From Lactarius indigo (taxonomy: Eukaryota > Basidiomycota > Agaricomycetes > Russulales > Russulaceae), in NCBI GenBank assembly GCA_025766275.1, contig JAFKAC010000118.1:62001-126000 (forward strand): 64,000 nt of DNA, given 5' to 3'. Below, piece after piece: positions 16,618-47,109 of this stretch (position 1 is its first letter; each line of letters opens with the position of its first letter). Position numbers and translations under genes: made by a program. The notes beneath the pieces were generated by a model. It saw only the letters and a list, made by a program, of their open reading frames with translations. It ran no database searches and was not told the DNA's origin.

Positions 16618-16744
16618 TGTGCAGATCGAAACTGGGATTCGAAGAGATCAAAAGCATGTCATGATTACAGAATTACAATTTAAAGCCCTCAGCCAGGCCA
16701 ATGGGTTCAGGTGCTCCAAAAACCCTCTTTTCCCCATAAATCCT

Positions 16745-16805
16745 CACATAATGACGCAAATAATTAATGATACATTCGTAAAACCCCATGTGCAAATGAC
16801 CCTAA
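16745..16805 (+). repeat. Left terminal inverted repeat of the KDZ element
   Basis: It begins CACATAATGACGCAAAT. Further in, GATACATTCGTAAAACC and CCCATGTGCAA match, with a few differences, the inverted right end. The first ten bases are identical to the left end of the 2.96-kb element at 55072. Confidence 0.85.
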
Positions 16806-16860
16806 TACATTGGTGAAACCCACGTGGGCCTACATAGTAAAGGCAGACGTAAATCACAAA

Positions 16861-19800
16861 TGGGCCTATTAAATAGAACTGCCGAATTGTTCAGATGGGG
16901 CCAGCGACATCAGCTGGAGATACCTTACCATGATTAAGAGATGGGCCCACTACACAGAAAACACTTCGCAGGTGCTGCCGATAGTCTCAAATGGGCCCAA
17001 TGTTATTCCTAAGTGACACTGCCAAATTCCTTGAATAGGCCCAGTGCTGCCCCTGAGACACGCTGCCGACGGTCTCAAATGGGCCCAGTATTATTCCCCT
17101 GAAATGCTACCGATTGCCTTGAATGGGCCCATAATGGCTCCTAGGACATGCTGCCGATGGGCTCAAATGGGCCCAGAATTGATCCTTGGTGAAATTGACA
17201 ATTGTATCGAATGGGCCTGGTGCCAATCATAAGATATGCTGCCGATGGTCCCAAATGGGCCCGGTATTTTCCTAAGTGACACTACCAATTTCCTTGAATG
17301 GGCCCAGCGTTGCTCTTGATAGATGCTGCCGATGGTCTCAAATGGGCCCGGTGTTCTCCTAAGTGATGCTACCGATTTCCCTGAATGGGCCCAGTGCAAA
17401 TCATAAGATATGGTACCGATGGTCTCAAATGGGCCCAGTGTTTTCCTAGGTGACACTACTGATTGCTTTGAATGGGCCCAACATTGCTCTTAATAAGTGC
17501 TGCCGATGGCCTCAAATGGGCCCAGAATTGATCCTTGGTGAAATTGACGATTGTATTGAATGGGCCTAGTGTCAATCATAAGATATGCTGCCGATGGTCT
17601 CAAATGGGCCTGGTGTTTTCCTAAGTGATACTACCGATTGCTTTGAATGGGCCCAGTGTTGTTCTTCGGCGATTTCACCGATTGCTTTGAATGGACCCAG
17701 CGTTGCTCTCGATAAATGCTGCCGATGGCCTCAAATGGGCCCAGAATTGATCCTTGGTGAAATTGACGATTGTATTGAATGGGCCCAGTGAAAATCATAA
17801 GATATGGTACCGATGGTCTCAAATGGGCCCAGTGATTTCCTGAGTGACATTCCCGATTTCCTTGAATGGGCCCAGCGTTGCTCTTAATAAATGCTGCCGA
17901 TGGCCTCAAATGGGCCCAAAATTGATCCTTGGTGAAATTGACGATTGTATTGAATGGGCCCAGTGCAAATCATAAGATATGGTACCGATGGTCTCAAATG
18001 GGCCCAGTGATTTCCTGAGTGACACTACTGATTGCTTTGAATAGGCCCAGCATTGCTCTCGATAAATGCTGCCGATGGCCTCAAATGGGCCCAGCATTGA
18101 TCCTTGGTGAAATTGACGATTGTATTGAATGGGCCTAGTGTCAATCATAAGATATGCTGCCGATGGTCTCAAATGGGCCCAGTGTTTTCCTGAGTGACAT
18201 TCCCGATTTCCTTGAATGGGCCCAGCGTTGCTCTTGATAAATGCTGCCGATGGCCTCAAATGGGCCCAGAATTGATCCTTGGTGAAATTGACGATTGTAT
18301 TGAATGGGCCCAGTGTCAATCATAAGATATGCTGCCGATGGTCTCAAATGGGCCCAGTGATTTCCTGAGTGACATTCCCGATTTCCTTGAATGGGCCCAG
18401 CGTTGCTCTTGATAAATGCTGCCGATGGCCTCAAATGGGCCCAGAATTGATCCTTGGTGAAATTGACGATTGTATTGAATGGGCCTAGTGTCAATCATAA
18501 GATATGCTGCCGATGGTCTCAAATGGGCCCAGTGATTTCCTGAGTGACATTCCCGATTTCCTTGAATGGGCCCAGCGTTGCTCTTAATAAATGCTGCCGA
18601 TGGCCTCAAATGGGCCCAGAATTGATCCTTGGTGAAATTGACGATTGTATTGAATGGGCCCAGTGCAAATCATAAGATATGGTACCGATGGTCTCAAATG
18701 GGCCCAGTGATTTCCTGAGTGACACTACTGATTGCTTTGAATAGGCCCAGCATTGCTCTCGATAAATGCTGCCGATGGCCTCAAATGGGCCCAGCATTGA
18801 TCCTTGGTGAAATTGACGATTGTATTGAATGGGCCCAGTGTCAATCATAAGATATGCTGCCGATGGTCTCAAATGGGCCTGGTGTTTTCCTAAGTGACAC
18901 TACCGATTGCTTTGAATGGGCCCAGTGTTGTTCTTCGGCGATTTCACCGATTGCTTTGAATGGGCCCAGCGTTGCTCTCGATAAATGCTGCCGATGGCCT
19001 CAAATGGGCCTGGTGTTTTCCTAAGTGACACTACCGATTGCTTTGAATGGGCCCAGTGTTGTTCTTCGGCGATTTCACCGATTGCTTTGAATGGACCCAG
19101 CGTTGCTCTCGATAAATGCTGCCGATGGCCTCAAATGGGCCCAGAATTGATCCTTGGTGAAATTGACGATTGTATTGAATGGGCCTAGTGTCAATCATAA
19201 GATATGCTGCTGATGGTCTCAAATGGGCCCAGTGATTTCCTGGGTGACATTCCCGATTTCCTTGAATGGGCCCAGTGTTGCTCTTAATAAATGCTGCCGA
19301 TGGCCTCAAATGGGCCCAGAATTGATCCTTGGTGAAATTGACGATTGTATTGAATGGGCCCAGTGCAAATCATAAGATATGGTACCAATGGTCTCAAATG
19401 GGCCTGGTGTTTTCCTAAGTGACACTACCGATTGCTTTGAATGGGCCCAGCGTTGCTCTTAATAAATGCTGCCAATGGCCTCAAATGGGCCCAGCATTGA
19501 TACTTGGCGAAATTGCCGATTGCATTGAATGGGCCCAGTATCAATCAAGGTATGGTACCGACGGTCTCAAATGGCCCCGATGTTTTCCCAAGTGATACTA
19601 CTGAAATCTTTGAATGGGCCCGGCACTGCTCTTAATAAATGCTGCCGATGGTCTCAAATGGGCCCAGTGTTGTTCGTCAGTGATACTACCAATTGCCTTG
19701 AATGGGCCCAGTGTTGCAAATGATTCGTGCTGCCGATGGTACCCCATGGACCCAGTGTTATTCCTGAGTGTTACTACCAATTGCCTTGAATGGGCTCAAA

Positions 19801-20340
19801 ATTACTAGCGAGATACACTGCCAACAGGCTTAAATGGGCCCAGCATTGCTTGTGAGACATGCTGCCGGTGGGCTCAAATGGGCCCAGCATTGCCCCTTGA
19901 TGACATCCCTAATCAACTCAATGTTGCTTATGAAAAGTTATGAGGGAAAGCACCGATGGTCTTGAATGGACCCCATGTTGTTTATGAGGGGTGCTACCGC
20001 TGGGCTTAGCATCACTGACAAACCACATTGGGCCCATTTAAGACCATCGGCAGCATTTCTTAAGAGCAATTCTGGGCCAATTCAATCTAATCGGTAGTAT
20101 ATCACTTCGGAACAAGACTGCCGACTATGTTGGCTGGGCCCAGGCATGTTCCTGTGATGCGCAGCCAACCTTCAATAGGCCCAGCCATCCATGGTCAGTC
20201 CTGAAATGTGTTGCTGATAGCTTTGAATGGGCTAAGAATCCTTTTAAGGGCCACCATAGATTGCCTTTAATGGCCTGAGCCCTTCCCTCCAGAGTGCTGC
20301 CGATGGTCCTGAATGGGCCCAGAATTCTATGGGAAGCACT
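16861..20340 (+). repeat. Left subterminal minisatellite array, about 3.5 kb
   Basis: The basic unit is about 44 bp and carries CCGAT followed by GAATGGGCCCAG or AAATGGGCCCAG. Pairs form 87-bp monomers beginning ATGCTGCCGATGG, and in the middle of the array pairs of these form a higher-order unit of about 174 bp (for example near 18268, 18442 and 18617). The edges are more divergent than the centre, as expected for unequal exchange. Long open frames on both strands are by-products of an 87-bp period and are not genes. Confidence 0.93.
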
Positions 20341-20507
20341 GGCATATTTGTCTTGACATGTACCGCCTGAATGATCCCAGTGATACTCATTGTTGTCCAT
20401 CGGCAGACTGTCATTCCCTGCGTTCTTGGCCGGCAAGCTCTTTTGAGCGCACTCATATGTTTTCCAATCCGAAGCTTTAACATTTGGACTATATAACACT
20501 CGATATA

Positions 20508-21859
20508 CTACACAAGGTTCTGCACATCAGTATTGTCCAACTCCTCGATTATATCATCTATCACCTCACTCATTTCCTTCTCCTGCTGATAGATATTCCA
20601 TACCTGGGCATGGATTCGACGATTCCTTGATCCTTCAGCATGTAAGATGGCGACCCTGGTGCTGAGATCAAACTCTTCTTGCTGTTGTAAAGCAGAATAG
20701 ATGGTCAATGTTGCAAAAATCGGTAGTGGAATATACAGCATACCAGTACCTGCTCGGGAGGGTGCTGTACTTGCACGTGAAGCACCTCCACACTTTCATC
20801 ACCATGGCCTACCGGCACCTGTGAGTTGGAGGGAGATAGGTCATTCCCACTGAAAGTTCTGACTGTATATGGTGAGCAAGGTATGATTCGTAATCAGTCA
20901 AACTGGTACTCACTGTGTGCTACCGAATGGATTCCAATGCGCTCTCCAGCCTCGGTAGGTAGGGCCAAGTCCTCCCTAACATCTTCATTTGGCATCCCAT
21001 CCTGTCGCGATGGTGCGCAGGTTATCCCCTGAGCATGGGCCCCAGGCGAGACTGGCGAGTCCATCCCAAAGTTGTCCTGAGCCATTGGCAAGGGTGGCCC
21101 ATCCATACCAAAACTCTCCAGATCTTCGACCTCATGGTCTGTATATGCAGAGTAAGACATATTTTATAATCAGTCAAAATGGTACTCACTGTGTGCTGCC
21201 GACGAGATTCCTACACTCTCTCCAACCTCGGCAGGTAAGGCCAAGTCCATCTGGTACTCACCACACGCTGCCGAAGGGTTTCCTACACACTCTCTAACCT
21301 CGGCAGGTAGGGCCAAGTCCATCCCAAAGTCATCTTGAGCCGTTGGTGAGGGTGGCCCATCCATACCAAAACTGCCCCCATCTCGCACCTCCTGAGGAGC
21401 CTCTGAGTTGGTGACGCCATGGCCTTTTGGCACCTCAGAGGCACTGGAAGGTGGGGCATGCTTGCCCCATTCCCAAACTGTACATGCAGAGTTAGGGGTG
21501 AATGGAAATCAGTGAAAACGACACTTACCACGTGCTGCCTTGAGGCTGCCGATGGACCGAGTTGGCAGAGTAGGTGGAGGCGAATCCATCCCAAAGTCAG
21601 CTGGAACTGTAGGGGATGGAGATCCACCCATTCCAAAGTCGTCCTGAGCTACTGGGGATGGAGACCCGCCCATTCCAAAGTCATCCTGAGCTACCAGAGA
21701 TGGCGATCCATCCATCCCAAAGCTGTGTTTACTTTCTGGGGATGACTCCCCACCCATGCCATAATCGTCTTGACCTTCGGCAGATAGAAGTGGATCTTCA
21801 CTGATCCTGAGCTGTTGAGTGCTGACCAATATCGAAAGGGGAGAGCGAGATTGAGACAT
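20508..21859 (-). CDS. KDZ cargo: repeat-motif disordered protein, unknown function
   Basis: I do not recognise this gene. It begins MSQSRSPLSILVSTQQLR at 21859 and appears to have at least five exons joined by introns of about 50 bp, for example GTAAGT...TACAG near 21480-21533, GTGAGT...TACAG near 21141-21193 and another near 20872-20922. The exons encode a repeated phrase of the type DDFGMGGSPSPVAQ or SFGMDGPPSPTAQ, separated by ALPAEVGE-like spacers, so the protein is predicted to be mostly disordered and acidic. The last exon (to 20508) is different: FDLSTRVAILHAEGSRNRR, then YQQEKEMSEVIDDIIEEL, a probable helix or coiled coil. It lies just inside the left array and diverges from the gene at 22101. 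The motif repeats might be multivalent binding sites, but that is a guess. Confidence 0.6.
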
Positions 21860-22100
21860 GAAAGTAGAATTTTCTGAGTGGAAATGGTCTGCGTGGAGTG
21901 GTCTGATGATGTAGCGATAAGTCGAATGAGTCGGCAGTATCTCAATTACTTATTATGCAAAGAAGAATCCATGTTCTGCTGAGTCAGGTTGTGAATGGAT
22001 ATTTCGGCAGCTCGGCAGCGGCACCACCCGTCACTAGCACAACCTCAACCGACGTGGCAATTGACACCGCTGAACACATTGTTCTTTTTACTTCAACACC

Positions 22101-23961
22101 ATGACATCCCTTCTTTCCATCGCATCAGTGATCGAAGCCGCCGTTGCTGCTTATGTCTCAGTCCGAGATGTAACTGACAGGGCAGAATGGAAACGCCACC
22201 TTGAGAAGGAGAAGGTAAGTCCTTGTTTAGGTTTCCATTTGATCTCATCCCCATTTGAGTTAGGCCAAGGCAACAAAAGTCTTTCGGCAGGTCAAGAAGG
22301 ACAATTCGGGGGAGGCGCCAGCACTGCATCCCACACTAGCGGCGCTCTACATCGTATTAGACGCTGATGGTGATCTTTCAGAGATCACCAGGACAAACCC
22401 TGGCCTTAAGAGGCATAAGTATTACCAACCTGGGGCCAAGTTCCCCCAGGACATCTCGGACTTGTTGCCGAGCGAGGGTCGCTGGTGGGAAACCCTTGGT
22501 GAGTCATTAAAAACTGTCTCATTTGCTTTCTCAATGTCTCCCCACAGTTGCCGAGTCTCGAAATGTGGGACCACCACCAAAGACGGTCCCACATCACCTG
22601 CCGAGGGTGAAGCTCATCCTGCCGGATCCACCTGCCGACTATGCGGCAATGCAGGTGGATGGGTCGCAGAAGGTGAGTAATTATATCTCTATTCCTCTGA
22701 TCATTCTGACTTCCTCCAACAGTTGCTAAGGGCCACCCGCAACCGAAGGCAGTGCGAAGGGGCTGCCGAAGCTGCTGCCGTGGTCGATTCGAGGAAGCGT
22801 AAGCGGCCTTTGCCTTCAGGCGACAAGACCAAGAAGCGCCATGCAGGGCCCTCACGGCAGCAACGTAGGCCTGCAATCAATGACGAGGACGAGTTTGAGA
22901 GTGAGGACGATGACGACAACAGCAACAGCAACGACGACAGCTCCAGTGACGATGGCTATGAAGAAGAGGACGAGATCGAGGAGGAGGAGGAGGAGGAGGA
23001 GGACGATGAGGTGGACGAGATCGACGATGACAACGACGACAACGACAACAATGACGACGACAATGACGACAGCAAGGGAGGTGAAGAGGGTGAGGGAGAA
23101 AACGAGTATGAGAGGTATAAGTTCAAGGTGCGTATTCGTTATCTTTTCATTATTCGCAGCTGAAGGAAATGTAAATAGTGCTCTCGATGCACCCGTGCAG
23201 GGGTCGACTGCCAGACAAGGCCGACAGGGCCTTGCATTCGCTGCAAGGAGAAGAAGCAGCAATGCAGTCTGATGCCCATAAACGCGAAGACAGGCAAGGC
23301 AGATCGGCGGATACTGACGGCCAAGCAGGTCTTCAAGTTCCGCCTTGAGCAGCTCAAGGGGAAGCAGCCGAGGCGTGGGGTCAGGGTGGGTTCAGACTCA
23401 GTAGCGTTTGCCTCAAGGATGGTTGGGAGGATGAAGCTGGACAGCGGGTCATCTCATGGCCATTCTCGCTCGGCAGCTTCGGTTTCACCGTCTGCAGCTG
23501 AGTCGCCCGTCCCACCCTCTGCGGAGCTGTTCCCTGCTGTAGACGCAGCTGCCGAGCCCTCTGTCCCTACTCCCACTTCAATTCCCATCATCTCTGCCAC
23601 CGCCGCCCCTTCCCCTGCTGCTGCAGTTCCTCCTACCACTGCTACCGCCATTCCCCCTGCCGCCGCCACTCCCATTCCCCCTACCCCTGCTGCCGACTTT
23701 CCTGTTCCCATTGACGACCACTCCCCCTCCATAGCCCCCGCTCTCCGTCGGCACGTGTCATCGAAGAGGAAGAAACTCGTGCCGTATGTCTTGGTGCCGA
23801 ACCCACCACCCTCGGTCTCCTCGCAACAGCAAAGCTCTGCTGCCCAGGAGTCGCAAGTGCCGTCTCCCAGCAGCAGCAGCATGGTGGCCTTGGAGAGAAG
23901 GGTAGCTGCGATTGAAGAATGGATACGCGTGCAAGATGAGAACTGGAAGGGCAGATTGTAA
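22101..23961 (+). CDS. KDZ cargo: acidic, cysteine-cluster nuclear protein
   Basis: No known family is certain. Exon 1 encodes MTSLLSIASVIEAAVAAY... ending EWKRHLEKEK, followed by GT-AG introns near 22215-22291, 22500-22550, 22674-22723 and 23128-23210. Exon 2 has LAALYIVLDADGDLSEI. The middle exon is basic (SRKRKRPLPSGDKTKKRH), then a run of about 80 residues of almost only Asp, Glu, Asn and Ser (22870-23100). After the next intron comes a cysteine cluster, GPCIRCKEKKQQCS, resembling half of a fungal zinc cluster. A Pro/Ala-rich region, a nuclear-localisation-like SKRKKL and a C-terminal helix ALERRVAAIEEWIRVQDEN follow. It is probably nuclear and chromatin- or DNA-binding. The exact splice sites around 23130-23210 are uncertain. 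Confidence 0.6.
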
Positions 23962-24583
23962 GACCTTTGTCTTACTTTACGCATTTTTTGGCATCGTTTT
24001 TGTTTTGTTTACTATTTCCCTCTGCCTCGGTATCTCTTTACATACTTGTCTCACATCTAGCTAGTTCACTGCCCTACTGTACCATGTCTGTATCAAATAC
24101 AATCTCCACTTGCTGTCTTGTTTCGCCCTGCGTGATTGTGAGTTGGTTGTGATGTTTCGGCAGCTGTTCAGAACTGGTCAAATAACTCACAAACGGTCCG
24201 ATTTTATCGCTTAGAGTTGGCGGAGGATTCCTCAGCATTTGAGAATATCTACCTCCCCAAATATTTTCAGATCTCCGACATCTTATTTCCCAAGGCAGCA
24301 AAAATGTTGGCTTGAGCTGCCGCAACACTATATCATTGTCAAGGCATTTAATGGTGCTGAAAATTTGCACAACACGTGTATAGATAGATATTTACGTTAC
24401 ACTCTGAGTGACGCTTGGTACGAGTGAGAACCCAGAAAAGGGATGTGAGGGAGATACTAATCATCCGCAGCGGTGTATGCCCCTTGCCCCTCCTCCTTCT
24501 AGCGACCCACTCTGGTCCTGGCAGACATGCCGCTGCTCCTATTGGACACATTCACCTTCTAGAGTCAATGAGGAAGCTATCAC
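23962..24583. other. Spacer between convergent cargo genes
   Basis: This 620-bp stretch lies between the 3' ends of the genes at 22101-23961 and 24584-26734. I see no convincing coding frame. It has one TTTCGGCAGCTG copy of the element-wide motif near 24158. Confidence 0.5.
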
Positions 24584-26734
24584 TTACTGAATTTGCTTAG
24601 CCTGCTCTGTAGGCCGCGTTATGTGCGCTGAGCGCCGAGTGTCATTCTGTGTATTTGTCAAATGGCGATCAACTTTCTGGCGCTTGGAGGGGGGGGTATC
24701 GGCAGTTACCTGGGTGAGAGGCCCTGAGTTTCAAGGCGCTAGATTGAATTTAGGTCACTTACTTGGTCGTCAGGGGAGCGTTCCTGGGCAGGACCTGCCC
24801 TTGAGCTGCCGATGGGAGCTGGGTGCTGCGTGATGATGCGAGGGCGAGGACGAGTGTGAGTGTGAGGAGGTGGAGGCGGAGGTGGGGGGTTGGGAGGGTG
24901 TGGGGGCAGCATTCCCCCATCTTCTTGCATCGGCAGCTCCTCATGAGGCTGCTGACCATTGGCGCTCTGGTGAGGGTGAGGCCTAAGTTACAGAAACATA
25001 AGGGAGCTCAGTTACTTACACTGCTTGGACTCCCAGCACCATCTTCTTGGCTTTGTCCATTAGACCCACCCCCAGTTGAATGCTCACCATCATAATGCCT
25101 GTTAGCCTTATCCACTTTCTTGAAGCGGAATGGGATCTTGCCGGCAGCTCGCCTCTGTATCCAGTGCTTGAGTAGGGAGTTGGCGTCATGGAGACGAATG
25201 TGATGGTATTGTGTCAGAGTGACCCCTTCCGGCAGGTACTCGGCAGCAATAAAGTCGCCTTGGGCCTCATGTATTCTGGCCCATGGGACCCTTCCCTTGC
25301 TCCCACCGGCAGCAATCTCTGAGAATCAGATAACTGGCTAGGTCAGCAACAGGGAACTGTAGTTCACTCACGGTACATCTCACTCATGAACTTGCCAATG
25401 ACCACCTTCTTGTACATGAGGCCCTCGCGATCAATGTCTTCCCATTTCGGCAGCACAGGGTACCCATTTTCGTCCATCGGCAGCTTCACCTTAGGGGTTT
25501 TATCCTTCCTTTTTCTGTCCTCTTCACCGCTATCGGCAGGGTATTCCCCTACGAAGGTGTCATATTAGCACATTTCTCTTGAAGTGAAATAGACGCTAAC
25601 CAAAAGACTCGGCAGTCCATCTTGAGAACTCCTCAACCAGTGGGTCCTTTGACCAGCCGTTGTACCGGGCTTTGAAAGAAGTTCCGCCCAGCTCGTCATT
25701 GTTGTCATAGCTATTTGATAGGTTGTTAGATTGTAAGTATATAGCTTTGTATACGCACAACATGATCGAGGGTCCGTCATCATCACAATACCCCCCCAAA
25801 ATAGCAATGCGCACTCCATATTGGCAGTACATGGTCTCAGAAAAGTCCCGGATTGTATGAATACCGTGCTTCTCAAACATCCTTGGTGAGATTTAGTCAA
25901 CTTCCATCTGGTAAAATGATTGGCATGTACATACCGCTGCTGCTGCCGAGGAGGTACACCTTGCTCTGCCCATTTCTTCGCCTCTGCTCGGTACTTCACC
26001 TGTGTGTCTTCATCCAACCTTTCGCCAATTAACTTCACAGCCTTCCTGTAACAGCCAAGGTAGCTTCGTGATCCTGGCGTTGACCCAGACATTTCAACAG
26101 CCATCTTGTCCAGTTCCTGCTGGTGATGGTCAATCAAAATGTCGTGATATGTCCATCGTTTGCGACGAAAGCTGAATCTTTTGCACTCCTGTCGGCACTT
26201 GTTGTAAAGGTACCGGCGGACAAGCTGCAAAATATCAGGGCTGGACAATGTAGCCAAGAGTGCACATACTGTTTCTACGACCTTTCTATCAAATTCGGCG
26301 CCTTGTCACCAGTGTCTCTCAATGCGGTCCACCGAATCTTGGATGATTTTTAACCGACCATCTGCATCGGCAGCCCGGAACTCGGCAGTGTGCTTCTGCA
26401 ACATGCTCGCTTGTTCATCTGTGATTTCAATGTCCTGCTTTGAGGGGCTGTGAAGTGACATCAACAGAGGGCGTTTGCGTAAATACAATGGTTATACACA
26501 CCTTTCTTCACTCGTGGCACCTCCCACCTCGTCCTCAAGATCGGCAGCGAGCCAACGTAACTCGCCAGATGCAACTGACCCGAAGTCAGAAGATGGATAC
26601 GAGCCCTCAGACTCTAGACCTGAGTCATAGTCTTCGTCTGAGGTTTCATCATCTGACAGAGCTACGTCCTTCTCCCCCTTACTGTGATGCACAGAATTGG
26701 GCTTGGCACCTTTCTTGGTTGTTTTTTTGGGCAT
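24584..26734 (-). CDS. KDZ-associated protein with probable divergent HMG-like region
   Basis: It begins MPKKTTKKGAKPNSVHHSKG at 26734, followed by an acidic, Ser-rich segment. After an intron (GTGTGT...CACAG) comes DIEITDEQASMLQKHTAEF; after that, EFDRKVVET, LYNKCRQECKRFSFRRKRW and SYLGCYRKAVKLIGERLDED, then TQVKYRAEAKKWAEQGVPP. The last blocks have the pattern Y..A...L.....Q..Y...A..W...G.PP, which I recall from the large family of basidiomycete proteins linked to KDZ elements; a divergent HMG domain has been reported in KDZ cargo. Further exons give FEKHGIHTIRDFSETMYC, NDELGGTSFKARYNGW and a Pro/His-rich tail ending in a basic SKRQKVDR. Introns are about 50 bp. An in-frame TGA lies after ERHW (about 26306) before QGAEFDRK, so this copy may be broken there unless a tiny intron removes it. 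Confidence 0.65.
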
Positions 26735-26904
26735 GGGGAAGATTAACAGGAGGGACAGACTGAAGGTCTGACAATCTGCGGCAGTTTAAGTGACGATATC
26801 ACATGCTTGGCAGCGTGGGTTTGTTTATCGGCAGCTAGAAAAACTACGGAATTCGGGTGGATCGGCAGCTAGTCTTCTGCACCAAGTTCCTTAACGGTTA
26901 GAAT

Positions 26905-28208: not shown

Positions 28209-29047
28209 AGAATTCCAGTGCTTTCTCCTATATATATTTCCTTCCCTCAGTGAAGTCAGACTTCTATGTCCCTAGCAATGAGCATAGGTGAAATGGGGCA
28301 TAGCCATTGGAGCAGATCTATGGGGTCGGCAGCTCATCTGTTGGCTCAATGTTTTGCAGATGCGAAGAAATGTTGTTTTTTGCAGCAGCTCACCAAATGT
28401 CTCAAGCGTGTACATCTTCCCAAGAAAAGTGAAATGGTGGTCTGTAGTGGCCAAGAACCTGAGTTTGCCTATTCCCCCTCTTCTGAGCTGCCGAACAATT
28501 CAAAATCCTTTCCATGTTAATGGGGCGTGCTCATACTGCTTTCATAGAGACTATACTATCAAGCTTTATGTATCAATCTAGCTGTGCGAGACAAATCTGT
28601 TGTTTTTTGTCTACAGTGACTGAGGATCTAGATTTGTGAATGCAGAGTGCTCCCTCCTCTGAGCTGCCGAACAATCAAAATCCTCATGATGTTAATGGGG
28701 CGTGCTCATACTGCATCCTCAGAGTCTATACTATCAAGCTTTATTTCTCAACCTGGCTGCACAAGATAAATGCTTTGTTTTTTTGTCAAGACAGACCCAT
28801 CTTAGCAGTTATCTATCTTGGCACTGTTGATATCGTAAATAGGGTCTGGTTGCAACATTGGCAAAACCAGGCCATCTAAGGACCCTAGATTGTGCTTCGG
28901 CAGCTACCGACTGATGCGCCCAGATGACAGACTCCAAAATGATGGCTGGCTGCACTTTCAGGTGCCTTAATAACTGCCTTTTACAGGACCCATTTGTGGA
29001 TGTATAACAGGCTGTTGTCCCGCAATCCTTTTCCCTTACAGCAAACG
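28209..29047. other. Intergenic region with an internal duplication
   Basis: I see no gene here. The segment holds two tandem copies of a sequence of about 180 bp (28480-28800, listed separately) and four copies of the TCGGCAGC motif or its complement. Confidence 0.5.
28480..28800 (+). repeat. Imperfect tandem duplication, about 180 bp, two copies
   Basis: Both copies contain TCTGAGCTGCCGAACAAT, then GTTAATGGGGCGTGCTCATA, then CTATACTATCAAGCTTTAT. They start near 28480 and 28660 and differ by small substitutions and indels. Confidence 0.8.
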
Positions 29048-34652: not shown

Positions 34653-34664
34653 GGTTATGGGCCC
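34653..34664 (+). other. Copia-2 primer-binding site
   Basis: GGTTATGGGCCC directly after the LTR is identical to Copia-1 and complementary to the anticodon arm of initiator tRNA-Met. The leader 34665-35435 follows and is nearly identical to that of Copia-1. Confidence 0.78.
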
Positions 34665-38400: not shown

Positions 38401-39735
38401 CTAAGGGATTCACGCAGATCCCTGGCGTAGATTTTGATGAAACCTTCTCTCCCGTCGCACGATTTGAGTCGCTACGTTTACTTCTGGCGTTGGCCGCGCT
38501 GGAGGACTGGCACATCCATCAGATGGATGTTAAGTCTGCTTTTCTCAATGGCGTGCTTGACGAGGAGATTTACATGGAGCAGCCACAAGGTTTCACTGTC
38601 ACTGGCTCTGAGACGAAGGTGTGTCGCCTGGTTAAGGCGATCTATGGTCTCAAACAGGCCTCCCGCGCATGGAACTTGCAATTCCATGGAGTGCTCACTG
38701 CACTCGGCTTTAAGCGGACGTTTGCTGATGCTGGCATATATGTGATGCCTCAACGGGAGGGGTATGATCCACTCTTCGTTATTGTCTACGTTGATCGACA
38801 TCACTATACTGGGTCCCTCGCTTGAGTGGTATCAAGCGTTTGAAGTCAGACTTTGTCTGAACGCTATGAGATGACAGGATCTCGGGGAGATAGAGTCTTA
38901 TCTTGGTATGCGCATTGTGCGTGACCGCTCCCTTAGACGCATCGAAATAGATCAGTCTGGCTACATCAAGGATGTCCTTGAACGCTTTGGCATGTCTGAT
39001 GCCACACCACACAACACACCCTTGCCCGCTGGTGCTGACGAGCACCTGGTTAAATATACGTCGCAGGCAACTGCCCCAGATATCTCTCACTACCAATCTC
39101 TTATTGGGAGTCTGCTTTATGTGCAGATTGGCACTAGGCCAGATATCTCTTTCGCTGTGTCACGTTTGGCGCAGTACGCAGCGAATCCCTCACCACAACA
39201 TCTGCGACTTGCGCAGTATGTCCTGTCCTACTAGTGGGAACTATGGATATGCGTATTGTCTATGATGGCGCAAATGGCGATGGCCTTCATGGCTACACTG
39301 ACTTCCAGTCTGGCTGATCAGACTGATGACCGCCACTCCACCTCTGGTTATGTGTTCTTACTAGCTAACGGTGCAATAAGCTGGTCTTCGCGCAAGCAAA
39401 AGACTGTTGCCCAAAACACAACGGAAGCGGAATACATGGCCATGACCGACGCAGGCTAACAGGCTGCGTGGTATCAGAGCTTCCTCATGGAACTCAGGGT
39501 ACGAGGTCGACGACCCCATCCCACTTCATGGTGACAATAAGGGTGCCATTGACTTGGCCTTGAACCCTGTCACTGGGAGACGGTCTAAGCACATTGCCAT
39601 ACGGCATCATGTCATTCGGGAGTACATCGAAAAAGGGGACCATCACCCTCATTAGAACTCCTACTGTAGATATGGTTGCGGATGGCTTCACAAAGTCACT
39701 ACCGCGTGTCCTGCTGCAGAAGCACAACGAATGAC
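35436..39735 (+). pseudogene. Copia-2 Gag-Pol, broken by multiple single-base indels
   Basis: The same domains as Copia-1 are present in order: Gag (35570-36100), CHYCNKKGHIKPDC (about 36220-36262), protease MMDSGATHH (about 36445), integrase (HSDLAG about 37023, HSDRGGEY about 37218, SPQSNGK about 37305), reverse transcriptase KSKWVFKLKADG (about 38345) and RNase H (39310-39460). Frame changes occur at about 36104, 37150, 37200, 37275, 38204, 38800 (inside the YVDD motif), 38865, 39230, 39455, 39495, 39635 and 39733. Between them the protein is almost identical to Copia-1. The first 45 residues are divergent. The pattern of single-base indels with few substitutions looks like sequencing error as much as mutational decay. 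Confidence 0.9.
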
Positions 39736-39765
39736 ATGGGACTTGTGTGTACTTAGATTGTAGAT

Positions 39766-39775
39766 CACGGGGAGA
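39766..39775 (+). other. Copia-2 polypurine tract
   Basis: CACGGGGAGA directly precedes the first, truncated 3' LTR start at 39776. It is the same as in Copia-1. Confidence 0.75.
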
Positions 39776-39869
39776 TGTTGATAAGTGACCCTTGCGCACT
39801 TAGCGGCTCGTATGGACCGGACTTGCAGCATGGACTGCTTTAGATTAGATTAATGACCCACCTCCTGAG
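39776..39869 (+). repeat. Truncated LTR start plus copied transposase flank
   Basis: Positions 39776-39853 are the first 78 bases of a Copia LTR (ending TTAGATTAGATTAA). Positions 39854-39869 are TGACCCACCTCCTGAG, identical to the KDZ transposase sequence just left of the insertion (34015-34030). A full LTR then starts at 39870. Retrotransposition alone cannot produce this arrangement. Confidence 0.9.
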
Positions 39870-40487
39870 TGTTGATAAGTGACCCTTGCGCACTTAGCGG
39901 CTCGTACGAACCGGACTTGCAGCATGGACTGCTTTAGATTAGATTAATTGGACTTGTAGATTACTTACATTTGATCTGTACAATCTAGCGCTGATCATTG
40001 CGTCATGTATGACATCATGTACCATGACATCATGTAGAACACTCCAGACGCTTCATTGTACTCAGTCCTTTGTTCTCCTTTAGTTCCTATCTTTATTGTG
40101 ATGTCATTATGATATCATCTTTGTCTGGACTCTCTTTGTTCTAGTCGCCTTGTTCTCTTTTCATACACTCCTTTTGTCCTGTATGTAGAACAACGCTCCT
40201 TGTATTCTGTGACTCTACGTTACCACTCTTGTACTAGTGTCACACCTCTGTACAGTATAAGTAGTAGTGCTTGTACGCTCCTGGTCCACATCAGTTCTCT
40301 CACTGCTGTGTGCCAGGTATGTTCTCCTCCACTGTAATACTATTATCAGTTCTCTCACTGCTGTGTGCCAGACTATCATCTTGCTTTACTTGCTTGACAC
40401 CTCCTGTGCTGCTTCTCAGTCACCCTCTATATCTCACCACAGTACTTTGTCCCACTGTGAGTATAGTTCCTATGTGTCTGTTCATCA
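39870..40487 (+). repeat. Copia-2 3' LTR (618 bp)
   Basis: TGTTGATAAG to TGTTCATCA, followed by CTGAG (40488-40492). It differs from 34031-34652 by several substitutions and small indels. By structure it could equally be a solo LTR from a second allele (see the findings). Confidence 0.88.
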
Positions 40488-40531
40488 CTGAGTTTGCCAA
40501 GGTCCTACTACAGCCAAAAACGAGTAGATAA

Positions 40532-41018
40532 AATTATTCAAATACATACAGTAATCTCAACTAGTCGTTGGTAGTCATTGGGGGTTAAAATATTGGCAGC
40601 ATCTAATGGCAAGTTGGGCTTGTTTCTATCTACTAAAAGGGAAGCCATGTAGACAGTGGAATCGCTGCTGATGACGTTGTATTGGCCAATAGCTGGCAGG
40701 GAACTGGCAAACAACATCCTCACATGGGCCCACAGAACCCATCGTGTTGACCCAAAGTTGTTAGGAGAGCTGCCAAGTGTAGGCCGATGGGTTGAGCTGC
40801 CGAGCCAACACCTCATATGGGCCTATAGTCTCTGTCTATGGTCACCCATTGGCCCATAGAACCCATTGCGCTGGTCCAAAGTTGTCGGGAGAGCTGCCGA
40901 GCATGGTCCCAGGATCACGTGTATGATTTGGCAGCGTAACCCTACCTTAGATTATTAGGACTCATAGGCAGCTTCCAAAGGCAATATCACACTCCATTCA
41001 CGTTACACACTACATACT
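40532..41018. other. Intergenic region with a diverged tandem duplication
   Basis: I see no secure gene. Two related segments of about 60 bp (40725-40785 and 40848-40910) share GGCCCA, AGAACCCAT, CCAAAGTTGT and GGAGAGCTGCC. They resemble isolated units of the subterminal arrays (GGGCCCA plus CTGCCGA). A minus-strand open stretch at 40538-40816 contains ISSDSTVYMASLLVDRNKPN but has no recognisable domain. Confidence 0.5.
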
Positions 41019-41711
41019 ATGTCAGCTGAAACAGGCACCTCTATATTAGATGCTGTGCTCACCTGCATTGGCGAGAGAATATCCTCTATCTTGCTCAACT
41101 CTGCCGATAAAGATGAAAAAGTATATCACCAGCTTACACAATGAAGTGGCAAGCATTAATTTTCCATCTAAAACAAGTGGAACACATTCTGATCAGAATT
41201 TGGATTTAGCTTGCTGCCGTATGGGTCACTGGCCTTTTATCGTCTAGCGGCAGCCCCCCTCATGTGCCAGAGGCAGTCAGGATTGCCTTTCACCATTTTT
41301 CGGACATCAGGAACCCGGCATCCTATGCAGCACATGATGCGGACCAGAGGCTGAAATGCAAGATTGAGGCATTAGCCATTCCACGATTTAAACTTACGGA
41401 GTGGTGGAAAATTGGAGAAGGGGTGACTATGAAAGAACCATTTGATGTCCGCGATGAGTTAGTAGCAGAGTTGTTGCGTTCTCTAGAGATGGTATGCACC
41501 CTGCTTCATTTACAAGTCCTCAAAGTAACTGGAACTGCAGCAGGAAGCTAGCTCAAGTCTTCGCACTAGGGTAACAGAGGGGTTCAAACAAGCTCAGCAG
41601 CTGTCCAAGAATATCGAGAGCTGCCGCGATTCCATTTATCACATGTTCGATGATACTTATCGCAGTTTTGAGGCAGAGGCTATTCGTTTGGAGAATGAAA
41701 ACTCTGGTTGA
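41019..41711 (+). CDS. KDZ cargo: small hypothetical protein with coiled-coil tail
   Basis: I do not recognise this gene. It starts MSAETGTSILDAVLTCIGER and exon 1 ends KDEKVYHQLTQ; after a putative intron the frame continues PEAVRIAFHHFSDIRNPASY, KCKIEALAIPRFKLTEWWKI and VRDELVAELLRSLE. After a further intron (about 41490-41542) it ends with TRVTEGFKQAQQLSKNIE and FEAEAIRLENENSG. The tail is predicted helical. The first exon loosely resembles those of the genes at 22101 and 42902 (short helical stretch, then a DEKV-type end), which may be paralogues. Intron boundaries are tentative. Confidence 0.45.
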
Positions 41712-41745
41712 TGATTACTGTAGTTCTACACATCACAGAATATGA

Positions 41746-42257
41746 TTACAGCTGCCGATCCTCCCCAATGAAGGCGTCTGCCATAACCATCTCATTGTCC
41801 AAATCACGCAGAAGTTCCTCCAATAGTTCGATCTTCTCTGATTGCTTATCTTTCAGGAGGTTAGCTCGATCTCTGGCAATTGAAAGCCATCACGGAGAGA
41901 CACCCTTTGGAGGATCCTGGATTGTTTTAGCTGATGTCAATCAGATGACACTTGAGTTACCTTGTCAATGAGCTTTCCAATCACAGGTTGTAAGAGTGTC
42001 ACACTTTTCGGGACCTCGCTGAAACCTTGGCATCTGCTGTTGGGCCGGAGGGTCCCACCATTCCTTGCTGGTGTTGACCCACATCAGACTCCATTCCATT
42101 GAGGAGTTTGACCCCATTCCAGAATGCAGATCGCATCTATAGGCATCGGCTCAGTGTTCTAGTAAAGCATTAGTTTTGATACACACACCGCCTCCTTGAA
42201 GCTGTTCTCCTCTGACTCATAGACACCTTGTTTCATCTCTGAGGACTTCCCCTGCAT
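41746..42257 (-). CDS. KDZ cargo: small coiled-coil protein, tentative
   Basis: It starts MQGKSSEMKQGVYESEENSF at 42257, with likely introns near 42150-42188 and 41920-41963. The final part reads ARDRANLLKDKQSEKIELLE and ELLRDLDNEMVMADAFIGED, a heptad-like helix, and stops at 41746. It converges with the gene at 41019. The middle exon shows frame problems, so it may be decayed. Confidence 0.35.
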
Positions 42258-42901
42258 GGTTGATAGATTGTTGATCGGATATCAGCAGATGTCCCTCACA
42301 GTATGACGTCATAAGCACTTATGTACACATGCGGATCTATGAATCTGAAACAAGTTGCATGGGGTGGCAACAATCTATATCCCCTTCTAATTAGTTGGAA
42401 CAGGCCAAAAGCAAGAGAACTCTGCCGGGTTAGACATGAGAGCTGCCAGGATAGACACATGAGCTGCCGAGCTGGATACAAGAGCTGCCGGGTTAGACAC
42501 GGGCATAGGCCAGCCATATGTTTGTGTTTTGACTGCTGGCTGAACAAATTAAGCCCACGAAAGCAGCACGCATAACACCCAATAATCTTTCCTGAAACAT
42601 CTTCTGAAATGTGCCTGTGTGGGTCAATGGAATCCATGTGTGAGCTCCCAACAAACTTGCGGCAGCCCCAACAATATGCCGGCAAGTGAAGCGCTTGCCT
42701 GGCCCATATAGTACACCCACACACACTGCCGATGAAACTACAATCCCCTAATAGGATGTTTCACAATATATCTATCTGCATAGTTGATAATTATAGATGG
42801 ACATACCCAGGCCACGCTCCTACTGTTTCCTCCTATATCTACTCCCGACACCTCTTGCCTTTGATCCATAAGACCATTGACACCACCCTTCCTCTGTGAC
42901 C
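42258..42901. other. Intergenic region with short GCTGCCG repeats
   Basis: No gene seen. Near 42413-42505 four units of about 20-22 bp with GAGCTGCCGGGTTAGACA-like sequence stand in a row. The remainder is unremarkable. Confidence 0.5.
42413..42505 (+). repeat. Four-unit GCTGCCG microrepeat
   Basis: The units read, with changes, CTGCCGGGTTAGACATGA, CTGCCAGGATAGACACAT, CTGCCGAGCTGGATACAA and CTGCCGGGTTAGACACGG. They share the CTGCCG core of the element-wide motif. Confidence 0.75.
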
Positions 42902-44532
42902 ATGTCAACTTCCAATCTCAGTCTAACCCAGGACAAACAAACTCTTCACCACTATGCAGCTATGCTCGAGAAGGAACTAGAAGCCTATCATGCATGCATA
43001 CCCAGAGATGAAAAGGTGTGGAGGAAGAAATTCAGAACGCACTTGGTATTCTAGTCTTCCTACAATCCACTTCTATAAGCTGAGCTGAGGTCTATGCAGA
43101 AGACTTCAGTGGACTATTATTTCGGTGCCAATAGAAGAGGCTCTGTACCTCCCCGCATTCACCCACTGTTGTTAAGCCTCATGGAAGTGATCAGAGAGGG
43201 TGGAACCTCCGTGAAAACTAAGTTCAGTCTCAGTGAAGGATCCAAGGATTTTGATGAGCAACTATTATACTTCACCAACGGATCTCCCACCACTGAATAC
43301 TACATTTACCAGGCCAAAATGGTGTGGACCCTCTCTCTGACATTCATGTCCTGTCGACTGACATCGGCAGCTTCTTGTCAAGAATGCATGGACAGTTTTG
43401 GCGTCAGTAGGCGGGCATGATGATAAATATGCCATCGGCAGCTTCCAGTCCAGCTCCTATAGCACCTGAGCATCAAGAAAACTCAGCAGGTGGAAACATA
43501 ATAACTACCTCAGCGGCAGCTTCTGGTCTAGAACCTATGGCATCTGAACCTCAAGAGCCCTCGGCAGAGATAGGCAATCCAAGAGCCCCTATTCCCAGGA
43601 GGAAGAAGGATTCGTATGCGTCTGGTAGTGGTGTTCGCAGTGAGTCCTGAATTTTGTCATGCAGATGTGTTGAGGAATAAAATTGCCAAAGAAATTGTTA
43701 CCAGATCGGCAGCAAAAAGGAGTGCTGCCGATGACACTGGTGAAGCAGCTATCAGCACTACATACAAGACTAGGAGGCGTGCAGGAGTTAATAATCCGAG
43801 TGCAGCTAGGCCAAATATCAAAGGTAGGTGTGAACGGGATAAGAGGACAAGCTCAAGAAAGGGCAAGCCTCTACACCCAGAAGAGGACCCTGACAACAAC
43901 TGGGAGGATGAAGCTCAACCTCTCAATAAACCAATGGAGGGAACCAATGAGGAGGCATCGCCAGGTGCATTAGGTCTAGCTTCCATTGGTTCTATGCTCA
44001 TCACATTTACCGGCAGCTAAAGAAATTGTTACCAGATCGGCAGCGAAAGGAGTGTTGCCGATGATATGGTGAAGCAGCTATCAGCACTACATACAAGACC
44101 TAGGAGGCATGCAGGAAATAATAATCCAAATGCAGCTAGGCCAAATATCAAAGGTAAGGGGAAACAGGATATGAAGACAAGCTCAAGGAAGGGCAAGCCT
44201 CTACACCCAGAAGAGGACCTTGACAACAACCGGGAGGTCGAAGCTCAACCTCTCAATAAACCAATGGAGGGAACCAATTGAGGAGGCATCGCCAGGTGCA
44301 TTGGGTCTAGTTTCCATTGGTTCTATGCTCACCACATTGATCAGCAGCTGAGGGCGAAGATAACAATAATATAGTTAAACAGCTCGAACGGGAGGTCCAG
44401 AGTCTAAAGGTCAGATGTGACTGGCAAGAGAAAACAATTAAGGATCTGAAATCCAGATGCGATAGCCATGAGAAGGTCCTTGAGTCACTTCGGCAGCAAA
44501 TGTGGGTCTCCATGAGAGAGGGAAGAGCCTGA
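42902..44532 (+). CDS. KDZ cargo: basic protein with duplicated exon and coiled-coil end
   Basis: I do not recognise this gene. It starts MSTSNLSLTQDKQTLHHYAA; exon 1 ends RDEKVWRKKFRTHL at a GTATTC...ATAAG intron. Then come SMQKTSVDYYFGANRRGSVP, IHPLLLSLMEVIREGG and FDEQLLYFTNGSPTTEYYIY. A Ser/Ala/Pro-rich exon with PRRKKDSYASGSG follows. The next exon, AKEIVTRSAAKRSAADDTGE with RTSSRKGKPLHPEEDPDNN, occurs twice (43688-44018 and 44019-44345, about 331 bp apart). The end is a helix, EDNNNIVKQLEREVQSLK and HEKVLESLRQQMWVSMREG. The second exon copy shifts frame (TGA near 44279), so the gene may be damaged or may splice one copy only. Confidence 0.5.
43688..44345 (+). repeat. Tandem exon duplication, 331-bp period
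   Basis: AAAGAAATTGTTACCAGATC starts each copy at 43688 and 44019. The copies share exon and following intron sequence to about 44345 and differ by scattered substitutions and a few single-base indels. Confidence 0.85.
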
Positions 44533-44579
44533 ATACTACATATTTTGGGGAGAACTATGATCTCATGCCATAGCTACAC

Positions 44580-47041
44580 TCCTCATACCAATACAGGCTC
44601 ATCGGCAGGATGTATGCATGGGCATTGCAGGTCAATACATGCTTGTCGGAAGAGTACAGATATGAACACTGTGAGCCAACTTCATTGGAAGAAGAAACTG
44701 CAGGCCAATACAAGCACATCGCAGGATGCACACATTGGCAGAATGGGCCAGTACAAGCTCATCGGCAGGATACATACCTTGACGCCATGGGCCAATACAA
44801 GCTATTCGGCAGAATACACACACTTCTACCGTGGGTCATTACAAGCTCATCGGCAGCAAGTACACTTCGGCGCCATGGGCCAATATAAGCCATAAACACA
44901 CAAACGCCATGGGCCAATACAAGCTCGTCAGCAGAATATGTATATGAGTACAGTGGGCCAATACAAGCTCATCGACAGAATACACACATCGGTGCCATGG
45001 GCCAATACAAGCTGTTCGGCAGAATTCACCTATGGGAAGAATAGGCCAATACGAGCTTGTCAGCAGAATACACACATGAGCACCATGGGCCAATACAAAC
45101 CCATCGGCAGCATGTACACATCGGCAGCGTGGGCCAATACAAGCTGTTCAGCAGAATTCACCCATGGGAAGAATGGGCCAATACAAGCTGTTCAGCAGAA
45201 TACACACATGAGCACAGTGGGCCAATACAAGCCCATCGGCAGCATGTACACATTGGCAGTGTGGGCCAATACAAGCTGTTCGGCAGAATTCACCTATGTG
45301 CAGAATGGGCCAATACAAGCTCATTGGCAGAATACATACATGAGTACAGTGGGCCAATACAAGCTCATCGACAGAATACACACATCGGTGCCATGGGCCA
45401 ATACAAGCTGTTCGGCAGAATTCACCTATGGGGAGAATAGGCCAATACAAGCTTGTCAGCAGAATACATACATGAGCCACCATGGGCCAATACAAACCCA
45501 TCGGCAGCATGTACACATCGGCAGCGTGGGCCAATACAAACCCATCGGTAGCATGTACACATTGGCAGTGTGGGCCAATACAAACTGTTTGGCAGAATTC
45601 ACCCATGGGCAGAATGGGCCAATACAAGCCCATCGGCAGCATGTACACATTGGCAGCGTGGGCCAATACAAACTGTTCAGCAGAATTCACCCATGGGCAG
45701 AATGGGCCAATACAAGCCCATTGGCAGCATGTACACATTGGCAGCGTGGGCCAATACAAGCTGTTCAGCAGAATTCACCCATGGGGAGAATGGGCCAATA
45801 CAAGCTCATCGGCAGAATATGTACATGATTACAGCGGGCCAATATAAGTTCATCGACAGAATACACACATCAGCGCCATGGGCCAATACAAGCTGTTCGG
45901 CAGAATTCACCTATGGGAAGAATAGGCCAATACAAGCTTGTCAGCAGAATACATACATGAGCACCATGGGCCAATACAAACCCATCGGCAGCATGTACAC
46001 ATTGGCAGCGTGGGCCAATACAAGCTGTTCGGCAGAATTCACCTATGTGCAGAATGGGCCAATATGAGCTTGTCAGCAGAATACATACATGAGCACCGTG
46101 GGCCAATACAAACCCATCGGCAGCATGTACACATCGGCAGCGTGGACCAATACAAGCTGTTCGGCAGAATTCACCCATGGGAAGAATGGGCCAATACAAG
46201 CTTGTCAGCAGAATACATACATGAGTACAGCGGGCCAATACAAGCTCATCAACAGAATACACACATCGGCGCCATGGGCCAATACAAGCTATTCAGCAGA
46301 ATTCACCCATGGGAAGAATAGGCCAATACGAGCTTGTCAGCAGAATACATACATGAGCACCATGGGCCAATACAAACCCATCGGCAGCATGTACACATCG
46401 GCAGCGTGGGCCAATACAAGCTGTTCGGCAGAATTCACCTATGGGAAGAATGGGCCAATACAAGCTCGTCGGCAGAATACGTACATGAGTACGGCGGGCC
46501 AATACAAGCTCATCGACAGAATACACACATCGGCGCCAGGGGCCAATACAAGCTATTCGGCAGAATTCACCCATGGGGAGAATGGGCCAATACGAGCTTG
46601 TCAGCAGAAAATACATGAGCACCATGGGCCACTACAAACCCATCGGCAGCATGTACACATCGGCAGCATGGGCCAATACAAACCCATTGGTAGCATGTAC
46701 ACATTGGCAGTGTGGGCCAATACAAACTGTTCGGCAGAATTCACCCATGGGCAGAATGGGCCAATACAAGCTGTTCGGCAGAATTCACTTATGCAAAGAA
46801 TGGGCCAATGCAAGCTCATCGGCAGCATGCGCACCTTGGCAGCATGGGCCAATTACAATCTCATCGGGACAAATGTCATAGGTGCATTGTGGGCCCATGC
46901 AAGCGATTTGTTCGGCAGCTATCCTACCAGCGGTACAGATAATGTGGGCCCACACGAGACTGTTTGCAGACAAGCCTGATGGGCCCATACAAATATATGC
47001 GCATTATATTAACAATGGGCCCACATGGGCTTTGCCGACTG
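44580..47041 (-). repeat. Right subterminal minisatellite array, about 2.5 kb
   Basis: The units of 44 bp contain GGGCCAATACAA followed at about 8 bases by CGGCAGAAT or CATCGGCAGCAT. Read on the minus strand, a unit runs GCTGCCGATGG...ATTGGCCCA, which aligns with the left-array unit GCTGCCGATGG...ATGGGCCCA at the same spacing. The two arrays are therefore homologous and inverted. The outer part (46860-47041) is more diverged. Long open frames here are repeat artefacts. Confidence 0.93.
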
Positions 47042-47102
47042 ACATGGCACAATTGCACATGGGCTTTACCGAGTCTATCGCAAGGATTTGCGTCATGGGC
47101 TC
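47042..47102 (-). repeat. Right terminal inverted repeat of the KDZ element
   Basis: Read inward on the minus strand it begins GAGCCCATGACGCAAAT, then GATAGACTCGGTAAAGCC and CATGTGCAA, matching the left end (16745-16805) imperfectly. It is followed by the target duplication AAATCCT (47103-47109). Confidence 0.85.
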
Positions 47103-47109
47103 AAATCCT

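Follow-up and report, generated by a model that had tools for sequence, protein, structure and literature searches.

The ends and target-site duplications (TSDs) of TET-bearing Kyakuja transposons of Agaricomycetes have been described in general, with Russulales among the host orders, in a study whose main text does not name Lactarius (Kojima 2025, PMC12730594). As given there, the TSDs measure 7 bp in these Kyakuja elements and 8 bp in Zisupton and a TET-bearing Dileera family; Zisupton and Dileera belong to the KDZ superfamily too, some of them carry TET, and the TET-bearing Dileera are reported from rusts (PMC12730594). The experimentally mobile Cryptococcus elements KDZ1-KDZ3 are described as being about 9-11 kb long, with terminal inverted repeats (TIRs) of 139-241 bp, a CxC1 domain, and TSDs of 8 bp for KDZ1 and 4-8 bp for KDZ2 and KDZ3 (PMC12810828).

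Here we analyse a stretch of 64,000 nucleotides (the window) from the blue milk-cap mushroom Lactarius indigo, in which a large KDZ transposon had been proposed. Like the TET-bearing Kyakuja of the above study, this element combines a KDZ transposase and a CcTET-like (AG-type) TET gene with a 7-bp duplication and a 5’-CA start. However, the two L. bicolor Kyakuja families described there run CA..TG without a TIR, whereas the Lactarius element has CA...TC ends and an imperfect 60-bp TIR and, compared with published Kyakuja as presented in that source, adds extensive arrays in inverted orientation and no fewer than five other genes. We place it in the KDZ superfamily and use no closer name than Kyakuja-like, the CA..TG rule being known from these two families (PMC12730594). 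Zisupton and Dileera differ by their 8-bp duplications, where we find 7 bp; the Cryptococcus elements share the KDZ transposase, but differ in size, TIRs, domain and TSDs. The 7-bp length, which the original prediction considered one base short of the expected eight, is thus no anomaly beside TET-bearing Kyakuja. Its suggestion that such ends may be undescribed does not hold for TET-bearing Kyakuja in general, Russulales included.

Judged by its predicted domains, the element belongs to the KDZ superfamily, as had been deduced from its transposase and TET/JBP-like gene. Gene 4 of the window matches Tet_JBP (PF12851, E 3e-18) and CcTET (E 2e-25), the sole relative found in the PDB, and relative to CcTET it retains the HxD and the following Asp, the latter being described as needed for 5mC (PMC12730594). 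Gene 5 matches CxC2 (PF18803, E 3e-26), and the Lactarius indigo protein P0043 matches both KDZ (PF18758, 4e-43) and CxC2 (5e-25); the window's transposase exon alone reaches KDZ at only E 0.004, below the cut-off, because its frame is broken.

The ends of the element and its 7-bp duplication are proven base for base (Table 1). Contig C242 carries a near-identical but empty allele, running through the insertion site with a single AAATCCT and flanks of 99% and 98% identity. In the four gypsy paralogues C256, C18, C253 and C226 (80-82% identical to the left flank, 70-72% to the right), the left and right flank matches share the 7 target bases and no more, in keeping with the noted rejoining of a gypsy gag gene across the gap. 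Within the retrieved DNA, 27 of 28 other left ends (the exception, C204, is cut off) and all 30 other right ends match through to the terminal base. The termini CACATAATGACGCAAAT / GAGCCCATGACGCAAAT are present at the window element’s two ends, and aligning the outer 62 bp of both gives a score of 21, whereas none of 2000 shuffles exceeded 10, which upholds the imperfect inverted similarity of about 60 bp.

Table 1. Features of the KDZ element in the window (positions in the 64,000-nucleotide stretch)
Feature	Position	Strand	Remarks
Whole KDZ element	16745..47102	+	30,358 bp including nested copia; homology of other copies ends at these bases
Left target-site duplication AAATCCT	16738..16744	.	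single copy in empty allele C242
Right target-site duplication AAATCCT	47103..47109	.	single copy in empty allele C242
Left terminal inverted repeat, imperfect, ~60 bp, 5’-CACATAATGACGCAAAT	16745..16806	+	alignment score 21, shuffles at most 10
Right terminal inverted repeat, imperfect, ~60 bp, ending ...ATTTGCGTCATGGGCTC-3’	47041..47102	-	same end-to-end alignment
Left subterminal array, 44-bp units in ~175-bp blocks	16973..20100	+	unit at 20007-20100 inverted
Right subterminal array, 44-bp units	44588..46867	-	opposite orientation to left array
Gene 1, FGMD-repeat protein, model of 181 aa	21132..21859	-	dN/dS 0.27
Gene 2, acidic protein, Zn2Cys6-like cysteine pattern	22101..23501	+	dN/dS 0.28
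Gene 3, protein without assigned identity	25016..26734	-	dN/dS 0.33; stop codon in window copy
Gene 4, TET/JBP dioxygenase, CcTET relative	27280..28208	+	stop codon in window copy
Gene 5, CxC2 + KDZ transposase	30301..34014	+	window copy frameshifted; copia cuts near 3’ end
Nested copia retrotransposon	34015..40394	+	LTRs 34015-34557 and 39854-40394
Gene 6, 192-aa protein (G192)	41019..41711	+	dN/dS 0.44; frameshifted in window copy
Gene 7, 138-aa protein (G138)	41746..42257	-	dN/dS 0.48; frameshifted in window copy

The search for further copies that had been proposed recovers about 30 of them in the Lactarius indigo genome. At 94% identity or more there are at least 29 left-end matches, at least 28 of which reach the terminus and at least 24 begin exactly at the first element base; right-end matches number at least 31 at 92% or more, with at least 9 further ones at 78%, all of these being lower bounds since 40 candidates were scored in each search, out of 53 and 82 respectively. 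Where both ends lie on the same contig, 16 of 17 pairs are flanked by a perfect 7-bp duplication, all 16 seven-mers are different, and the base next to the 7-mer differs within pairs; the sole failure is C239 (acgatag / gtggtac). The copy on C73 is the same insertion as that of the window. Five uninterrupted copies measure 22.6-24.1 kb, in agreement with the expectation that about 24 kb would be left here after subtracting the copia (30,358 less 6,380 bp, about 24.0 kb), so the window copy owes its larger size to this 6.4-kb insertion. Three copies of subfamily B, each at a different site with a different perfect duplication, have cores that are 99.90-99.93% identical, and all seven gene models are open in copies C50 and C201b. 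The window copy is broken by stops, frameshifts and the copia, but closely related copies seem to be intact and to have moved recently. A second family is represented by one copy (C248, 20,303 bp), which has the same terminal bases, its own 7-bp duplication atgtagg, and the same seven homologous segments in colinear order; exon transfer shows only G192 and G138 to be open in it.

CACTA/En-Spm and the plant VANDAL elements have repeated binding sites in the subterminal region of each end and encode anti-silencing proteins, with other transposases, other anti-silencing proteins and no TET. Could the 44-bp arrays of the Lactarius element likewise take part in end recognition, or are they passive minisatellites grown by unequal exchange? 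Array lengths vary among copies and higher-order periods differ between the two families, both of which unequal exchange would produce. However, the unit analysis, which worked for the left arrays only, finds the motif TGCC(G/A)A with TGGGCC retained in both families though the rest of the unit has changed, and the motif switches strand from left to right arrays, making a purely passive origin rather unlikely. Apparently new are the long inverted arrays, whose motif outlasts array turnover, and the imperfect terminal repeat of 60 bp with its CA...TC ends.

The element was expected to carry about eight genes; a multi-gene element it is, but seven models are supported, not eight. Genes 1, 3, 6 and 7 have no known domain in Pfam, and a profile search of gene 3 against the PDB gave no hits either; its database model (583 aa) extends past ours at the C-terminus. 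The Zn2Cys6 pattern of gene 2 lies below the Pfam cut-off, and the 3’ end of its model is unsure because the database relative is longer. In copy C50 the gene 5 transposase is 1119 aa long. Between families I and II, dN/dS ranges from 0.17 to 0.48 across the seven models (the codon-phase signal between subfamilies A and B being too weak), although the values for genes 1 and 2 are soft because the two genes give poor alignments between the families, at a dS of about 1.3. Colinear and constrained, the seven genes therefore probably serve the element.

Starships, giant fungal elements of tens of kb with many genes, move by a tyrosine recombinase and carry variable host cargo, in contrast to the KDZ transposase and constrained gene set found here. 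By analogy, genes 1, 2, 3, 6 and 7 might be host cargo or passengers outside the transposition machinery, as the lack of known domains in four of them would allow. This is improbable in view of their conserved order in the second family and dN/dS below 0.5. Moreover, four other Lactarius species provide eight cases in which gene 3 is tied to the transposase or gene 2 (linkage via equal-length contigs), and database searches gave 42 and 22 hits without a host homologue, 41 and 19 of them, respectively, naming Lactarius. The gene set, and two genes so far encountered only in Lactarius, are apparently new.

Copies of the element decay mainly by CpG-to-TpG change: of the private substitutions in four subfamily A copies, 168 of 195 are at CpG. 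Among 12 pairs of copia LTRs, 13 of 17 differences are CpG and five pairs have none; C218, one of the 10 retrieved pairs, was left out as one LTR was not found. The ratio of CpG to other changes in KDZ falls from 168:27 (recent) to 130:217 (lineage-level), and in copia from 13:4 (recent) to 10:33 (shared sites), ratios that exclude sites common to a minority of copies (70 CpG, 4 other). This likeness is countered by the single-copy variants in 11 copia segments (33 CpG to 37 other), which are less CpG-rich than those of KDZ and may reflect copia sublineages. Counting the fixed A/B differences in a direction-bound way (47 of 347) exaggerated the contrast, and this count was replaced. Comparing KDZ substitutions with copia LTR differences gives no sign of copy protection by TET, and the idea that TET shields the element from CpG decay is unsupported.

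Taken with its inferred mechanism, the window segment is most probably (about 0.85) a broken copy of a KDZ transposon of the cut-and-paste type, multi-copy and self-encoded, for which ends, 7-bp duplications, an empty allele, copy number, seven constrained genes and open copies elsewhere are shown. That the ends do not belong to one mobile unit, but to a segmental duplication or chance juxtaposition containing a smaller KDZ element, is refuted by the empty allele, the 16 independently duplicated sites and the identical termini of the second family, even if C239 has no matching duplication and flanks common to C22, C73 and C34, and another common to C261, C159, C56 and C290, show that segmental duplication or haplotype copies do occur. 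In the cut-and-paste transposon, a DDE-type transposase would cut both ends and link these to target DNA at positions staggered by 7 bp. End recognition may fall to either the transposase or the Zn2Cys6-like protein, by way of the terminal repeat and the opposed arrays, which could act as multi-site landing pads pairing the two ends. The TET/JBP enzyme would oxidise 5-methylcytosine on the element, making expression or binding possible, with genes 1, 3, 6 and 7 as putative accessory factors rather than host cargo. Resident copies, that of the window included, later lose function through nested insertions, small indels and mutation of CpG to TpG.

What TET/JBP enzymes carried by transposons do has been stated not to be experimentally validated (PMC12730594). 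In the mushroom Lactarius indigo, a large TET-bearing transposon is available in natural copies that are complete and nearly identical, its ends are proven and an empty allele exists; the defined unit, end arrays and gene set make this question testable. Tentatively, the Lactarius elements may even form a distinct, genus-wide branch of giant KDZ transposons, with a composite machinery: a CxC2-KDZ transposase, a Gal4-like Zn2Cys6 protein reading the 44-bp units, which bear CCG/CGG, of the long inverted arrays, and a TET enzyme brought to these arrays with their CpG sites, which would couple the recognition of the ends to local demethylation in a single step. If true, this would be an anti-silencing switch comparable to those that plant transposons base on subterminal repeats, but relying on another enzyme.

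The window spans C22:62001-126000 in a 90.3-Mb assembly, and database proteins almost identical to the products of its element are those of Lactarius indigo. The original prediction had placed a KDZ transposon with defined ends in the window, which proves correct in outline, and its ends are exact: the homology of other copies reaches the last base at 27 of 28 left and all 30 right ends that were fetched. Within the same genome, the left 500 bp has at least 29 matches at 94% identity or more, of which 28 attain the terminus and 24 of those begin exactly where the element does. The right 300 bp has at least 31 matches at 92% or more, and also matches a second family at 78% (at least nine); with 40 candidates scored in each search, these counts are lower bounds. 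Identical 7-mers flank 16 of the 17 end pairs that share a contig, and all 16 differ (e.g. ggctgaa, ataaaag, gggattc, cccccag and gttgaga). The sole same-contig pair without a matching duplication is that of contig C239 (ends L030 and L056), where recombination between copies is a possible cause. Four further left/right pairs, on different contigs, agree over 7 bp, from which we infer that they are halves of single copies. The copy on contig C73 is flanked by aaatcct, as is the window copy (C22), and is the same insertion.

An empty-site comparison had been set beforehand as a refutation test. Contig C242 carries an empty allele, reading ...CCCCATAAATCCTGCAGTATCAGG..., in which the element is absent, AAATCCT is present once, and the breakpoints are not elsewhere. 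The flanks of the window copy match it at 99% on the left, as far as 48 bp from the insertion site, and at 98% on the right; the left match is broken there because C242 carries another insertion at that point. This has ends TAGTGTTGCCGTGGCTCGGCTC, a 22-bp perfect terminal inverted repeat beginning TAGTGTTGCC and an 8-bp duplication CCCTCAGC, and is hAT-like. The site is also uninterrupted in four gypsy copies of lower similarity (C256, C18, C253 and C226), where the left and right flank matches share just the 7 target bases.

The window copy is larger than the uninterrupted copies because a copia element lies inside it. The cores of C112, C50 and C201b are mutually 99.90–99.93% identical, and therefore point to recent movement of subfamily B; that of C223 is 97.3% identical to these three. 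In the second family (family II, as opposed to family I of the window), the one element read end to end, C248, spans 20,303 bp; its termini match, and it is flanked by the 7-bp duplication atgtagg. Searched with the window's TET region, the genome yields 16 near-full matches at 97–100% and 19 further ones at 77–78%, C248 among the latter. Separately, four left ends (L029, L031, L032 and L036, on C261, C159, C56 and C290) have the common flank ccaatcg, and an 88%-similar gene 2 lies at 39–53 kb distance on C261, C159 and C290. Among the genome matches listed, none to TET falls on these contigs; the group may represent a larger relative that lacks TET, or else a segmental duplication.

Features of the KDZ element, its copies and other sequences
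Feature	Position	Strand	Size	dN/dS, family I vs II
KDZ element, window copy	window 16745-47102		30.4 kb, incl. 6.4-kb copia	
Uninterrupted copy C241			22.6 kb	
Uninterrupted copy C223			23.3 kb	
Uninterrupted copy C112			23.6 kb	
Uninterrupted copy C50			23.5 kb	
Uninterrupted copy C201b			24.1 kb	
Gene 1, FGMD-repeat protein		-		0.27 (soft, because dS 1.3)
Gene 2, Zn2Cys6-like acidic protein		+		0.28 (soft, because dS 1.3)
Gene 3		-		0.33
Gene 4, TET/JBP		+		0.30
Gene 5, CxC2-KDZ transposase		+		0.17
Gene 6		+	192 aa	0.44
Gene 7		-	138 aa	0.48
Nested copia	window 34015-40394			
Tandem duplication at copia 3' LTR	window 39776-39948		94 bp	
Array of 81-bp units	window 55375-56301			
Array of 81-bp units, opposite orientation	window 56687-57762			
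Other insertion, 48 bp from empty site	C242:147174-154083		~6.9 kb by coordinates	
Copia or gypsy match	C281, C247, C143, C24: 5506-6703			
Copia or gypsy match	C17, C279: 6944-7289			

Seven genes are supported by the gene finder, which relied on how far codons are conserved from family I to family II. The transposase model, which contains a GC-AG intron, was finished by hand. Database models are close to ours for the transposase and gene 3, and they indicate that for genes 2 and 3 our models stop early or have an unsure 3' end. In C50 and C201b every one of the seven models is open; in C112 the transposase has a single frameshift and the other six are open. Stops in the window copy lie in TET and gene 3, both CGA to TGA; its transposase and its 192-aa and 138-aa genes are frameshifted, and it is further disrupted by the copia. 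A late stop in gene 2 of C22 and C241 is not trusted, since the end of that model is unsure. In the single family II copy, exon transfer left only the 192-aa and 138-aa genes open; for the transposase and gene 3, the database offers longer models of family II type in the L. indigo proteins P0046 and P0010.

The left subterminal array covers ~3.1 kb of 44-bp units arranged in 175-bp blocks; the right one is ~2.3 kb long, and its 44-bp units are oriented oppositely. Over 65 left units of the window copy, information content peaks at CCGAT and AATGGGCCCAG. The unit-anchor analysis kept 0 and 2 units in right arrays, and the right side was read from its tandem-repeat consensus, which contains ATCGGCAG, and from motif counts. 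In C112, TGCCGA occurs 8, 8 and 5 times per kb over the first three kb, and its complement 7, 17, 22 and 7 times over the last four. Family II arrays have different higher-order periods (211 and 220 bp), and TGCC(G/A)A and TGGGCC are retained in their left units (20 units). Such retention through array turnover argues for binding sites. Zn2Cys6-type clusters usually bind CGG triplets, which makes the gene 2 protein, with its cysteine pattern C-x2-C-x6-C-x7-C-x2-C-x6-C, a candidate reader of the arrays. The pattern is found in both families (P0163 and P0171) and missing from several database models of relatives; a single protein shows Zn_clus, with a score under the Pfam cut-off.

Against solved structures, the TET/JBP protein matches CcTET solely (two sequences, E 2e-25). 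Its HxD and subsequent Asp align with those that CcTET needs for 5-methylcytosine, and it has Ser in place of Gly331, a change listed for Kyakuja; the residue roles and this listing are those of Kojima 2025 (PMC12730594).

Private substitutions of the resident copies are mostly CpG transitions, unlike the fixed differences between subfamilies. Across the cores of C22, C73, C241, C223, C112, C50 and C201b, the four subfamily A copies hold 168 CpG and 27 other private changes in 15.7 kb (168/195) and the three subfamily B copies 15 and 1, against 130 and 217 for fixed A/B differences (130/347). The bias recurs in copia LTR pairs (13 of 17 differences, 12 pairs), and CpG-biased C-to-T change has been described in two other Agaricomycetes, Tricholoma matsutake (PMC6980582) and Rhizoctonia solani (PMC4014442). 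A general process is the likeliest source of the decay, and the KDZ-copy and LTR substitutions give no indication that TET is protective. The nested copia elements of the window and C73 occupy an identical position, yet 135 sites distinguish them, of which 82 are non-CpG. These differences exceed those of the surrounding KDZ cores; gene conversion is possible. At the 3' LTR of the copia, the tandem duplication includes bases that recur where the transposase gene ends.

Elsewhere in the window, two oppositely oriented arrays of an 81-bp unit contain the palindromic TCCGAGATATCTCGGA, and are perhaps the ends of another element. In the wider genome, a copia or gypsy match recurs at equal distance from the contig start within each of two sets of contigs, of four and two members, as if they had subtelomeric sequence in common.

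Gene 3 has 42 relatives, 41 of them named Lactarius (ten species), and gene 2 has 22, of which 19 are named Lactarius, in a search that requires exact shared words and may let remote relatives escape. Transposase relatives number at least 261 (8000 candidates scored), and the best 120 of these come from Lactarius and Russula as well as numerous other Agaricomycetes. Four other species provide eight cases in which gene 3 occurs with the transposase or gene 2 on equal-sized contigs, presumably the same contig: L. sanguifluus (294577, 481040 and 232475), L. pseudohatsudake (222957, 131523 and 61461), L. deliciosus (726837) and L. psammicola (54380). Locus numbers lie close together in two of the pairs (EDB89DRAFT_1908025/1908022 and EDB83DRAFT_2314458/2314461).

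In the literature consulted on KDZ/Kyakuja, giant DNA transposons and the L. indigo genome, no paper was seen to describe the element or to report subterminal arrays for Kyakuja. The roles of the arrays, the Zn2Cys6-like protein and TET are putative. The anatomy is firm: this TET+ KDZ element is large, carries multiple genes and arrays, and is flanked by 7-bp duplications like those of the TET+ Kyakuja.
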